Origin: Bifidobacterium sp.
GTDB taxonomy: Bacteria; Actinomycetota; Actinomycetes; Actinomycetales; Bifidobacteriaceae
DNA: 64,000 nt
Reading direction: 5' to 3'
Assembly: GCF_022647885.1 (NCBI RefSeq)
Contig: NZ_JALCLM010000001.1
Span: 2,030,610-2,094,609 of the forward strand
The first letter of the stretch is position 1, and the number at the start of each line of letters is the position of its first letter. Below the pieces are notes generated by a model. It saw nothing but the letters and a program-made list of their open reading frames with translations. It ran no database searches and had not been told where the DNA came from. Positions 2,125-63,148 of this stretch are shown here, one piece after another. The position numbers and the translations under genes were made by a program.

Positions 2125-2195
2125 GATAACTGCAATAATAATGGGGATTTTCCGAGGTTTTTTCCATATTTATCCCCACTTATATTGCAGTTATC
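2125..2195. repeat. Palindromic GATAACTGC repeat, copy 1
   Basis: The left arm is 2125-2147 and the right arm 2173-2195, with a 25-base loop. Both arms begin GATAACTGCAATA from the outside and end TGGGGA inside; three or four middle positions do not pair. It lies between the ileS T-box (minus) and the gene at 2313 (plus), so it is upstream of both. It is the only copy of the family not beside a stop codon. Confidence 0.8.
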
Positions 2196-2312
2196 TCATT
2201 CGACCACCTTTCACATCTGAGGCTACAAGTTAGCCAACGATTCTTAAGCTCTGTGTATAAGCAACAAACATGCCATTGAGATTCGACTGCACCTGGCGCA
2301 CCAACAGGGTCT

Positions 2313-3230
2313 GTGTCTCGAAGGCGAGGGTGGTCAGAGCAAGACTCATTACGTTTGCGAGCGAGCGATGGTCGCCTTTGTGAACCCTACCCCAATTTTT
2401 ATGCTCAACAAGCTTGGTGGGATGGACTTGATCCCCATCAGCAATGCGTGACAATGATCCGCTCTCTCAGCCTAAGACACCCTGAATGGGTATTTTGTTC
2501 GCTCTCTGCTTCTTGTATATATGCCTTTGAGCATGCCCATCGTTTGCACCGTGGATTAGTTCATGTAGCCACAACAGGGTCAGTCAACGGATGCCACGCC
2601 CCTCAACTACGCCGTCATCATATTCCCGCATCACAATTACATGTCAACATCCACCATGGGATCCGTCTGACCAGCCCATTACGTACGGTATTCGATTGCG
2701 GTCGAGAATATGACTTCGTCTCTGCGCTGCCCATTGTTGATTCGGCGTTGGCTCGAGGTGCCGTGCTACATAATGACCTTATCGAGTATTGCGAGACACC
2801 GAAGCGAGGGCGAGGCCGCGCACAAGCTTTGAAAGTTGCTCAAGCCGCAGATCCACACAGCGAGAACGGCGGAGAATCTATGTGCCGCGCCGTCATCATC
2901 GAGCAAGGCTTTGAAGCCCCTACACTGCAAGTCGAGATCATCGACCCGATTGAGTCCTGGAAACATTACCGAACGGACTTCCTCTGGGAATTACCTGATG
3001 GCAGACGCATTGTTGGGGAATACGATGGCAAACAGAAGTATCTGGACCGCGACATGACCGGGGATACTCACACTGGTGAGGTTATTTTGGAAGAGCGCAA
3101 ACGTGAACAACGCATATTGCTCGCCGGAATCAGTAAAATCATCAGATTCGACTTCTCAGACATCATCAACCCGACCTACATGGCCAATAAACTGACCATA
3201 TCCGGCATCCCGCGGCAGCATAGGAGATAA
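2313..3230 (+). CDS. AbiEi-antitoxin-like / DUF559-type nuclease-fold protein
   Basis: 305 residues; a type seen repeatedly in bifidobacterial genomes and usually left as hypothetical. The N-terminal third (WSEQDSLRLRASDGRLCEPYPNFYA, split here by position 9-33) resembles the winged-helix opening of AbiEi-type antitoxins. The C-terminal third has PD-(D/E)XK-like spacing: TDFLWELPDGRRIVGEYDGK followed by KYLD and a later EERKREQRIL, as in the DUF559/Vsr-like fold. The GTG at 2313 is the only start after the in-frame stop at 2277-2279, and its ribosome binding site is weak. The N-terminus may therefore be shortened compared with relatives. The TAA at 3228-3230 lies inside the left arm of a palindromic repeat, which may end the transcript. 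It has no AbiEii toxin partner beside it. The function is unknown and the domain call is by inspection only. Confidence 0.7.
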   Translation: MSRRRGWSEQDSLRLRASDGRLCEPYPNFYAQQAWWDGLDPHQQCVTMIRSLSLRHPEWVFCSLSASCIYAFEHAHRLHRGLVHVATTGSVNGCHAPQLRRHHIPASQLHVNIHHGIRLTSPLRTVFDCGREYDFVSALPIVDSALARGAVLHNDLIEYCETPKRGRGRAQALKVAQAADPHSENGGESMCRAVIIEQGFEAPTLQVEIIDPIESWKHYRTDFLWELPDGRRIVGEYDGKQKYLDRDMTGDTHTGEVILEERKREQRILLAGISKIIRFDFSDIINPTYMANKLTISGIPRQHRR

Positions 3231-3296
3231 CTGCAATAAAACTTGGGATACCAGCGCAAATATTGCCGCAAAAACCCTAGTTTTATTGCAGTTATC
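3226..3296. repeat. Palindromic GATAACTGC repeat, copy 2
   Basis: Left arm 3226-3247 (GATAACTGCAATAAAACTTGGG), right arm 3275-3296, with one mismatch in 22 positions and a 27-base loop. It contains the TAA of the upstream plus-strand gene and lies between convergent genes. On the plus strand it is followed by CCCTTTTTG, so it can act as an intrinsic terminator for the 2313 gene. Confidence 0.85.
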
Positions 3297-14967: not shown

Positions 14968-15308
14968 GAAGGAAAACGATTATCTCAGTTAATAGCTGCG
15001 CTCACAACGCAAGATGGTTGAGGATTAGTAGCGACCACCGACTACGTTGCCAGTGCAGCTATTGCTATCACACAGCATTATTGACTCAATATTGCTGACA
15101 CAGCAATATTATTAGCAACATAGCAAATTGAGAAACTTCTCCCAGTAGCACCCTCGCATAACGGCACACATCCCAGATCTCAGCATGAACAACTTGAGAA
15201 TTGAGTTCTCAGCCTCCAAACAGCAATGCTGAAAAGTTGTATTGTGCCTGCATTACCTCTAATCAGCCGATGCACTCAGTAGAGCAATTGCAGATGTCGA
15301 CCTGCTTT
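14968..15308. other. Intergenic region with a small perfect dyad
   Basis: 341 bases between convergent genes, with no credible reading frame. It contains AATATTGCT-GACAC-AGCAATATT (15088-15110) and a degenerate relative, ATTGCTATCACACAGCATTATT, at 15061-15082. Several CAGCAAT/ATTGCT units recur to about 15230. A bidirectional terminator or remnant is possible; nothing else is seen. Confidence 0.4.
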
Positions 15309-21573: not shown

Positions 21574-22208
21574 ATGTTGACATTCTTTCTTCAAGGTGTT
21601 GTTGCCGGACTAGCCATTGCTATACCCGTAGGATCAAGCTCTGCACTGACGATGACCATCGGTGCCCGATACGGCTGGAAATCAGGATTAGCCGCAGGAG
21701 CTGGTACAGGAGTCATACTCGGAGTATTTGCCTTCCTGGCTGTGTTTCTAGGGAATATGATTTCGCCAATAATCGTTGAGGCTTCCCCAGTATTGCGCTG
21801 GGTCTGTTGCACGGTGTTAATTGGTATGGGATTATTCATGGTGCTTAGTGCTATTGCCTCATTACGAAGTTCAGACACGACACTGAAGAAGGCACGCAAG
21901 TAAGTAACGCACTCAGACAACCGTGGAAGGCCTTCGCAGTCTTACTTACCGCTACACTTGCAAATCCGGTAGCTATTGTGTACTTCGCCACTTTGGTGCT
22001 CTCCCTACCGGCAGGTATCAGCAATCCTGAGAACGGTTTGATGTTCTGCATAGGTGTGCTCTTACCGTCCCTATGCTGGATGATGCTCCTGTCATTGGTC
22101 GGCGTAGCCATTGGCATGGTGTTAAAGGGGCGTCACGCCCAATTCGCCACCGGAACCTTCGGCGGCTGCGCAATCATCGCCCTAGCAGTGTGGAACACCT
22201 TCGGATAA
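21574..22208 (+). pseudogene. LysE/RhtB-family amino-acid exporter, frameshifted
   Basis: Two adjoining frames make one LysE-family protein of about 211 residues. Frame one (21574-21903) gives GVVAGLAIAIPVGSSSALT and further segments, ending SDTTLKKARK at a TAA. The second frame is open from 21849 and continues LRQPWKAFAVLLTATLANP, then VAIVYFATLVLSLPAG, to 22208. The frames overlap over 21849-21903 in the hydrophilic loop between segments 3 and 4; one base appears to be missing. Lysine/threonine exporters of this family export amino acids at the membrane. No classical slippery heptamer is present, so this is a pseudogene or a sequencing error rather than clear programmed frameshifting. No strong ribosome binding site precedes the ATG. 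Confidence 0.8.
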
Positions 22209-22217
22209 GTCTCCACA

Positions 22218-22292
22218 GAGATAACTGCGATAAAAGTGGAGATAATATGGTCAAATTTCAAGAATTATCTCCACTTTTATCGCAGTTATCTC
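22218..22292. repeat. Palindromic GATAACTGC repeat, copy 3 (29-bp perfect arms)
   Basis: Arms 22218-22246 and 22264-22292 are exact complements over 29 bases: outer GAGATAACTGCGATAAAAG, inner TGGAGATAAT, with a 17-base loop. It lies between the convergent ends of the LysE-type gene (stop 22208) and the SDR gene (stop 22305). It is the most perfect copy. Neither side has a T-run. Confidence 0.9.
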
Positions 22293-34878: not shown

Positions 34879-34951
34879 AGATAACTGCAATAAAAGTGCA
34901 GCTATTCGACATATTTTTGGCGAAAAAGCTGCACTTTTATTGCAGTTATCT
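34879..34951. repeat. Palindromic GATAACTGC repeat, copy 4
   Basis: Arms 34879-34903 and 34927-34951 are exact complements over 25 bases (outer AGATAACTGCAATAAAAG, inner TGCAGCT), with a 23-base loop. It begins 15 bases after the GNAT stop and ends 61 bases before dapB on the same strand. Confidence 0.9.
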
Positions 34952-49155: not shown

Positions 49156-49229
49156 GATTGATTCGTGTATCTGTGACTTTTCTCCCGCATTAACCCTAAC
49201 AGTCGCAATTCTTGAGGCCGAATTCTCAT

Positions 49230-49335
49230 TGTGTAGGGATTTTCAAATAGAACGCCAACCAGTAAGAATTACTCCGTTGCAATAACGCCATTCATCTCAG
49301 ACCAAACCATGCTGCAACTTGAAAATCCCTACACA
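49230..49335. repeat. 17-bp perfect inverted repeat enclosing 72 bases
   Basis: TGTGTAGGGATTTTCAA (49230-49246) and its exact complement TTGAAAATCCCTACACA (49319-49335). The interior has no strong structure. It resembles a small mobile-element or long-hairpin layout, and lies between the rpoC terminator and the YdbS-like gene. Confidence 0.7.
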
Positions 49336-49400
49336 AACGGATATCCAGATACTGATAGCTAGCAATATCCCACGAAAAATGGTGTTTTACCACACACAAA

Positions 49401-61645: not shown

Positions 61646-61718
61646 AGATAACTGCGATAAAAGTTGGGATTATGCTGCCATTTCGTCCAACATATCCCAA
61701 CTTTTATCGCAGTTATCT
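61646..61718. repeat. Palindromic GATAACTGC repeat, copy 5
   Basis: Arms 61646-61670 and 61694-61718 are exact complements over 25 bases (outer AGATAACTGCGATAAAAG, inner TTGGGAT), with a 23-base loop. It begins 17 bases after the DUF711 gene stop on the minus strand and is followed there by ATTTTTG, so it can serve as a terminator. Confidence 0.9.
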
Positions 61719-61735: not shown

Positions 61736-63100
61736 TTAGTTTTTGAAGCTGTGAATTGGGGCGGGGATTCTTCCACCGCGGTTAACAAAGGCAGCACAAC
61801 TCTTTTGATTGACAGCCATAATCGGGGCATGCCCCAATAAACCACCAAATTCTGCCGTATCACCCACACCTTTGCCAATGACGGGGATTACACGCACCGC
61901 GGTGGTCTTTTGGTTGATCATACCGATGGCAGATTCGTCGGCAATAATGCCCGAAATCGTAGTAGCAGTGGTGTTACCTGGAATAGCAATCATATCTAAA
62001 CCTACGCTACACACGCAGGTCATCGCTTCTAACTTCTCGATTGTCAGGCACCCAGATGCCGCAGCGTCAATCATGTTTTGATCTTCTGAGACAGGGATAA
62101 ACGCTCCAGAAAGACCGCCAACATAGCTAGATGCCATAATGCCGCCCTTTTTCACCTGATCGTTAAGTAAGGCAAGTGCAGCAGTTGTGCCAGGGGCACC
62201 AACCTGTTCAAGACCCATCTCTTCTAATACCTCACCTACAGAATCTCCGACAGCAGGTGTCGGAGCCAACGATAAATCGATGATGCCAAATGGTACACCA
62301 AGCCGTTTGCTTGCCTCTTGCGCAACTAATTGGCCCACACGAGTTATTTTGAATGCGGTGCGCTTTATGGTTTCACACAGCACACCGAAATCTTTTCCTC
62401 GAGCAGTTTCTAGCGCAGTACGAACTACTCCAGGACCAGAGACGCCGACATTGATAACAGCATCGCCTTCGGTAACTCCGTGGAATCCGCCAGCCATAAA
62501 TGGATTGTCGTCAGGTGCATTGCAAAAAACCACCAGTTTTGAGTTGCCGGAACTATCTGAATCAGCAGTAGCTTCTGAAACCTCTAGAATCTTTCGCCCA
62601 AGCAAAGCAACTGCATCCATATCAATACCAGTTTTTGTCGAGCCAACATTCACACTCGCGCAGACCCGTTCTGTCTCAGAAAGTGCCTGCGGCAGTGATT
62701 CTATAAGTAAACGCTCCGTTGGTGTCATTGATTTGCTGACTAAAGCCGAATACCCACCGATAAAATTGACGCCAACCTCTTTAGCGATGTTATCGAGAGT
62801 ATGTGCAATCTGTACATAGTCATCCACGCTGTTACAAGCACTGGCAGCAACCAATGAGATAGGTGTTACTGTAATTCGTTTATTGACGATAGGGATGCCA
62901 TATTCCCTCTCAATCGCTTCTCCCGTAGAGACTAGGTTCTTCGCGTAACTGCTGATTTTCTGGTAAATATTAGTCCGAAGCGTCGCAAGATCATCGCTGG
63001 CGCAATCTAACAGGCTGATGCCCATAGTAATAGTGCGCACGTCGAGCTTTTCCTGCTCAATCATCTGATTAGTCTCGTGAACCTCCATGATATTCAACAT
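61736..63100 (-). CDS. DUF711 / UPF0210 protein (PFL family protein)
   Basis: 454 residues of the UPF0210 family, a glycyl-radical-like fold of unknown activity. Conserved parts include [88 protein letters not shown] and [19 protein letters not shown]. The last 80 residues have [22 protein letters not shown] 63100 follows AAAGGTG by nine bases; a GTG four codons earlier has no space for one. It lies 48 bases after an ACT-domain gene, the usual UPF0237-UPF0210 pairing, suggesting that a small ligand controls both. Confidence 0.9.
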
Positions 63101-63148
63101 GGCTATCTTCACCTTTCTTAGGGCTGTGGTTACGTTCTGACTGATTCC

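Follow-up and report, generated by a model that had tools for sequence, protein, structure and literature searches.

What are the near-perfect palindromes that recur in this Bifidobacterium genome, and how do their two arms stay complementary while their sequences change? The window, by which we mean the whole stretch of 64,000 nucleotides that was analyzed (positions 2030610-2094609 of a genome of 2,342,264 bp in one contig), carries five of them. We favor, with a probability of about 0.6, the reading that they belong to a RAYT-less, REPIN-like family of hairpins placed at gene 3' ends, whose copies act as recombination junctions.

The five palindromes proposed in the first-pass annotation were all found where it had placed them (Table 1), and each measures 71 bp from GATAAC to GTTATC. 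Two of the three copies it described as perfect are so (22218, 29/29; 61646, 25/25), but 34879 is complementary at 96% over 28 positions; the remaining copies reach 95% over 22 (3226) and 88% over 24 (2125). Four of the five lie within 18 bp of a stop codon, as it had stated, with 2125 as the exception. At 3226, the TAA within GATAAC is itself the stop codon of the preceding gene. An SDR gene has its stop codon 14 bp from element 22218, and G016, a genome of another species of the genus, carries an element (L200) at the same site. The neighbors of element 61646 are a DUF711 gene and a SOR/SNZ (pdxS-like) gene. At the gathering score, the sole Rfam match in the window is a tRNA, and the elements are left without a family.

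Table 1. Palindromic elements of the window and the gene enclosed by two of them (window coordinates).
Feature	Position	Strand	Remarks
71-bp palindromic element	2125..2195	.	Left border of a gene absent from this locus in G016
305-aa gene	2313..3230	+	Flanked by two elements; stop codon inside element 3226
71-bp palindromic element	3226..3296	.	Right border of the 305-aa gene
Weak decayed candidate element	14991..15063	.	73 bp; E 0.013 on one strand and 0.096 on the other; possibly a chance match
Palindromic element	22218..22292	.	71-bp unit 22220-22290; palindrome 2 bp longer on each side
Palindromic element	34879..34951	.	Unit 34880-34950; between a GNAT gene and dapB
Palindromic element	61646..61718	.	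Unit 61647-61717; site common to G016 (L202)

Three observations concern the surroundings of these elements. The plus-strand gene upstream of element 22218 (window 21574-22209) seems split across two frames and is perhaps decayed: one open reading frame ends at 21903, and the open frame continues to a stop at 22207. The DUF711 protein (window 61736-63112) is closest, among the matches listed, to a Slackia protein (85%), ahead of other bifidobacteria, which reach 83% at most, in a list that may omit records close to the genome of the window. On the minus strand at about 1880-2060, upstream of a minus-strand gene, there is a GGTGGTACCGCGG motif, uncalled by Rfam at the gathering score, that is presumably T-box-like.

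Could five copies be a chance cluster? The outer 13-mer has 15 matches in the window at up to two mismatches, against a shuffle mean of 2.66 (largest 6), and genome-wide GATAACTGCRATA has 47 exact matches against 0 for its reversed control, which rules out chance. Of these matches, 46 can be joined into 23 pairs that all span 71 bp, and the partner of the remaining one is decayed. The first-pass annotation would have read fewer than a handful of copies genome-wide as a chance cluster; with a covariance model based on 66 copies, the count in this genome is 44 elements, or about 42 without two weak ones (window 14991-15063, E 0.013; L077, E 0.018). The same model, searched against sampled loci of G016, gives at least 104 full elements in 87 loci, leaving out L197:5039, which is cut by the locus end. 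The family is also specific to a clade, as had been supposed: pairs of the outer 9-mer with a spacer of 40-66 bases number 30 in the own genome and 106 in G016, and there are none in the other 187 genomes of the family Bifidobacteriaceae. A third relative (G024) has three weak decayed sites only and G005 has one, and scanning the whole family with the model, under stricter filters and a ceiling of 26 scored candidates per genome, added one weak match in G132. The viral contigs gave 0 matches to the 71-bp pattern. Of 14 unpaired arm matches in the sampled DNA, 13 can be assigned to elements already counted, whose partner arm is decayed or cut, or to the second copy of such a locus, and one arm stands alone beside an element (L050:2453). 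Arms are thus hardly ever unpaired, which rules out a DNA uptake sequence.

The plan of the elements is simple: two inverted arms of ~23-27 bp surround a variable core of about 25 bp, and the ends read GATAACTGC...GCAGTTATC. The length is 71 bp in 38/44 own and 94/104 G016 elements, and 69-73 bp in the rest. Columns 1-9 are invariant save one change in the 66 aligned copies, which were picked by their outer motif (other ends, e.g., AATAACTGC and GATACCTGC, occur in the wider set); variation is present at columns 10-12 and 18-20 and is greatest in the core. Pairing holds in 92% of the cells over 27 positions. The covariation of the arms claimed at the outset is real, with 162 cells changed on both sides versus 59.2 in shuffles, 16 of the 27 pairs affected, and a score of 0.249 versus 0.090 when shuffled and 0.03-0.07 when slid. 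At columns 18-20, the own elements carry TGG (13 of 44), TGC (5), GGC (3), GAC (3), or others, and the two arms usually agree. The palindrome reaches at least one base further outward in 82 of 148 elements, where one quarter is expected, the commonest added pair being A...T (68).

Selection for structure was one of the two explanations first offered for this symmetry. Selection on RNA pairing should favor G-U over A-C. Yet the 74 elements between tandem genes, read in the sense of transcription along arm columns 1-23, have 1630 Watson-Crick pairs, 19 G-U, 19 A-C, and 34 other combinations. Since G-U equals A-C, the symmetry is seemingly kept at the level of the DNA and not by selection on RNA pairing, so that the earlier explanation, in its RNA form, finds no support.

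Palindromes of other kinds occur in the same set of genomes. The own genome has a second type of ~108 bp with arms TTGTGTAGGGATTTT (window 49229-49336; L081:837-1049), and a palindrome similar to this type sits where G016 carries a 71-bp element. G005 has another type of 106-108 bp (L269:13517, L270:10813, L270:11840), whose arms end in ATTATTTTGTTGCC or, with the matching change, in ATTTTGCGGCC; hence, covarying palindromes are not unique to the 71-bp family. Palindromes of 98-104 bp in G005 (L270:15650, L270:16934, L272:5971) start with GTCATCCCGAGCG or a close variant, a motif found in many phyla. After the DUF711 gene of B. aerophilum, B. catenulatum, and one relative, there are palindromes of 85-92 bp (L086:4433 and 4577; L088:4466 and 4621; L090:4465 and 4621), without an Rfam match at the gathering score. 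They have variable arms and a similar core (GACTTGGCC...GGAGCGTGTC), which is the reverse of the pattern in the 71-bp family.

How do the elements spread? Cores that are identical or one base apart occur in G016 at distances of up to 1.36 Mb and in both orientations, and identical 25-bp cores lie 1.0 Mb apart. Such near-identical cores suggest recent dispersal in that genome, and they support the proposal of a mobile non-autonomous repeat. The own genome offers two near-identical pairs of neighbors, one at a spacing of 4.2 kb (71/71) and the other at 4.5 kb (65/71). Of 908 element pairs separated by more than 30 kb, only 9 have a core identity of at least 0.8, which indicates little recent long-range copying.

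The comparison of the two species gives a view of older events. Among the 44 own elements, 18 have both flanks mapped in the sampled G016 DNA, and an element is present at 16 of these sites; in reverse, 22 of 104 G016 elements map, and 15 of the 22 have an own element. These fractions are biased upward because the DNA was sampled around elements. The flanks of the shared sites are ~64-85% identical between the species. The very recent hairpin-copying spread suggested by the first-pass annotation may thus fit G016, but it does not fit the whole family, of which at least 16 sites are shared at such divergence. Of the 16 shared pairs, 15 show a difference between the species in both arms, at columns 10-12 or 18-20; the exception is L210/L043, whose copies are alike, and the pair L077/L166 has a decayed own copy. 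Both arms read AAT or GAT at columns 10-12 in the own copy of 11/16 pairs, and ACT/GCT or GAC is present in both arms of the G016 copy in 15/16. At columns 18-20, both arms carry GAC in 90 of 104 G016 elements versus 3/44 in the own genome; old-looking elements of both species also have this triplet, which may therefore be the older state.

The cores behave differently from the arms. Four shared pairs have cores that are 80-88% identical (34880/L201, at 88% with changed arms; L027/L178; L032/L197; L076/L064), and two more reach 0.72, where unrelated cores give ~0.56-0.60 in the same kind of alignment. The four kept cores indicate that these elements were inherited and that their arms changed in place, in a direction between the species that is not polarized; the two arms of L201 are of different types at columns 10-12, which would suit an intermediate. 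Beyond these four pairs (core 0.80-0.88), clear inheritance covers the site and not the element itself. Over 20 pairs of equal length (of 26 in a list that includes some pairs with a single flank only; two share L199), the core keeps a locus signal (0.50 versus 0.43, p 0.0005) and the inner arm has none (0.66 versus 0.65, p 0.30).

Species-specific arms at shared sites could be produced in another way. If the elements were sites of a sequence-specific DNA-binding protein, for example, a chromosome organizer or a transcription stopper, with two half-sites at fixed spacing, a shift of its specificity between the species would have been followed by the sites. The near-invariance of the outer 9 bp in the 66 copies, the narrow range of lengths, and the different arm types at many shared sites agree with this idea. 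However, own copies vary among themselves at columns 18-20 while the arms of one copy usually agree, which points to symmetry more than to an exact site, and the near-identical dispersed cores of G016 are not expected from binding sites. We regard this explanation, a form of the protein-binding site offered by the first-pass annotation, as unlikely.

The position of the elements raises a further question: are they simply terminators? With gene calls made by a home-made codon-usage script in place of a standard annotation, none of the 148 elements lies wholly within a called gene, and 12 overlap a gene end. They occupy 58 convergent, 74 tandem, and 11 divergent gaps, with 5 at locus edges, against 14 convergent, 128 tandem, and 44 divergent among 186 element-free gaps of at least 80 bp in the same loci. 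A neighboring gene ends toward 137 elements, at a median of 15 bp (40 own) and 24 bp (97 G016). A stop codon is within 60 bp of 113/148 elements (36/44 own, 77/104 G016; raw distances without a placement control), in line with the gene 3'-end location first proposed. Of nine orthologous sites free of an element, four carry another hairpin (z of -2.6 or lower by mononucleotide shuffles, without control regions), and five have no clear hairpin, which we count against our reading. Placement and the presence of another hairpin at four of the nine element-free sites are our reasons for proposing a 3'-end role, and, from these sequence comparisons, the elements are probably tolerated after stop codons and play such a role.

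Ordinary bidirectional terminators, shaped solely by selection on the RNA hairpin, would go further and explain the whole family by this role. They would account for the location after stop codons, the enrichment between convergent genes (58/148 versus 14/186), the hairpins at the four element-free sites, and the very stable RNA fold at element 22218 (-47.3 kcal/mol, z -11.8). No U-tract terminator was called at 22218, however; across the family, the eight bases after the hairpins have a mean of 3.11 T, versus 1.79 across all sampled DNA (a baseline that is not intergenic), and at least 5 T in 27 of 190 ends. The shared arm sequence, the narrow length range, the equality of G-U and A-C, and the dispersed near-identical cores of G016 are all foreign to such hairpins, and we find this alternative quite improbable.

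The elements also mark places where the gene content of the two species differs. At locus A (window 2125-3296), where the own genome has element, gene, and element, G016 has one element that homology meets from both sides. The ortholog of the 305-aa gene in G016 (79% identical) is at locus B, where it lies between elements and precedes an MFS-type gene, with a third element after that; there, it is the own genome that has one element with homology meeting it from both sides. On the right-hand side, the two gene copies stay homologous into the element, and on the left-hand side their homology fades ~100-190 bp short of it. At locus C, the own genome has one element and G016 has two, enclosing an ABC-transporter set; a further own element lies 4.4 kb on, where G016 has none. 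At locus D, both species have two elements and similar outer flanks, and no homology was detected between the interiors. The elements bounding these interiors are near-copies in three cases, D of the own genome (71/71), C of G016 (67/71), and one flank of B in G016 (68/71); those at locus A (52/71 at best) and in D of G016 (45/71) are not. Synteny is broken at 9 of 27 testable element junctions, compared with 1/34 for plain junctions (p 0.003); the reverse direction gives 10/33 versus 3/36 (p 0.03). Both counts use the original loci only, none of which was chosen for breaks. The two tests share loci, and the plain junctions include operon-internal ones, so that part of the excess may reflect position.

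The 305-aa protein has no Pfam or NCBIfam family, a weak match to AbiEi, and no relative in the viral contigs. Its close ortholog was found only in the two element-rich genomes, and relatives at 31-38% identity are present in five other members of the genus and once more in the own genome. We considered this gene as the mobilizing enzyme and rejected it on the lack of a family and the relatives elsewhere; these relatives make it likelier to be cargo than enzyme.

Are these differences the work of a recombinase? Integron attC sites are imperfect palindromes after stop codons with conserved ends, a variable center, and the core RYYYAAC, and they move as gene-plus-site units. The 71-bp elements share the post-stop position, the conserved ends, the variable center, and the gene-plus-element units, and a putative site-specific recombinase could shuttle such cassettes between dispersed elements. 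That the same gene is flanked by elements in both species, at A in the own genome and at B in G016, with single elements at the counterpart loci, would be expected under this scheme, as would the element-bounded differences at C and D. On the other hand, the elements are dispersed and not arrayed, and their stems lack the attC core, the arm ends failing to fit RYYYAAC. Most mapped elements keep the same neighbors in both species, and homologous recombination between repeats accounts for the same junctions. We therefore give little credence to integron-like sites.

Which enzyme could copy the elements? A MITE of a DDE-type insertion sequence would fit their terminal inverted repeats, small size, repetition, and position at gene ends, but it is very improbable and can be set aside, since flanking direct repeats of 4-9 bp show no excess in 44 own, 103 G016, or 62 young G016 elements, and since exact arms in the own genome always come in 71-bp pairs, which leaves no longer element with these exact ends in the own genome. 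The only hint of target duplication is in 3-bp flanking repeats of G016 (4 versus 0.9 expected). A check for a partner insertion sequence gave, in the own genome, no unpaired exact arm save one with a decayed partner; G016 was covered in its sampled loci only. ERIC and other MITE-like elements are multi-copy intergenic palindromes of set length, and the 71-bp family resembles them in these traits and differs in sequence, size, clade, and the lack of a 4-9 bp target duplication. No RAYT was found in the four genomes searched: Y1_Tnp (PF01797) had no match at E 0.001 or better in the own genome, G016, G024, or G005, and a control run on known genomes detected it in 5 of 14, among them E. coli.

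The closest known system is the REPIN, a doublet of REPs forming a hairpin in Pseudomonas fluorescens SBW25, with inverted conserved ends, a less conserved spacer of constrained length, common compensatory changes, and an extragenic location (PMC3116915). The 71-bp elements have similar inverted ends, a length-constrained spacer, compensatory changes, an extragenic position, and the potential for a hairpin. They differ from REPINs in that their ends have no GTAG (or CGTC) tag, that no Y1 gene was found in the four searched genomes, and that their arms are almost never single. Arms particular to each species at shared sites, and junctions of gene content, are seen in this family and are not among the REPIN features that we drew from PMC3116915. 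REPs themselves are 20-40 bp long with a tetranucleotide tag, and those with CGTC have no dedicated transposase (PMC3733652). The GTAG/CGTC REP and TIR families resemble ours in being palindromic and repeated, some of them without a dedicated transposase; the 71-bp elements are longer (~71 versus 20-40 bp) and tagless. The main text of PMC3733652 does not mention Bifidobacterium, and a literature search, mostly at the level of listings and of freely accessible papers, returned no REPIN or palindrome family of that genus (works used for comparison: PMC3733652, PMC5746004, PMC12306157, PMC2267715, PMC8355165, PMC3116915, PMC8049555). We do not claim membership among the REPINs, as the GTAG tag is absent and no RAYT was found in the genomes searched; the family would work like one.

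How might a RAYT-less, REPIN-like family of this kind be maintained? We propose that a process at the DNA level, e.g., template switching within the hairpin, would hold the arms complementary. Homogenization of arms between copies, or the specificity of one trans-acting factor, could set the arm type of each species, and a putative enzyme other than a Y1 RAYT would make the copies. Elements located after stop codons would be tolerated and probably used as two-way 3'-end hairpins, and recombination between copies could add, remove, or move gene-plus-element units. A bolder version, which is speculative and which we hold to be unlikely, is a hairpin-DNA system outside the Y1 world, in which a novel putative enzyme would rewrite the arms in concert genome-wide, leave the cores behind, and use the elements as scattered docking sites for gene-plus-element cassettes, as in an integron without an array.

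These elements may be useful beyond their own family. REPINs are explained by the RAYT, and the same anatomy without a RAYT in the genomes searched makes it testable which of their features depend on the transposase. The changed arms and kept cores at shared sites are a natural experiment that sets gene conversion, hairpin correction, and a co-evolving binding protein against each other. Finally, if the differences in gene-plus-element units turn out to reflect actual moves, these bacteria would gain and lose genes by an overlooked route, through small palindromes at the ends of genes.
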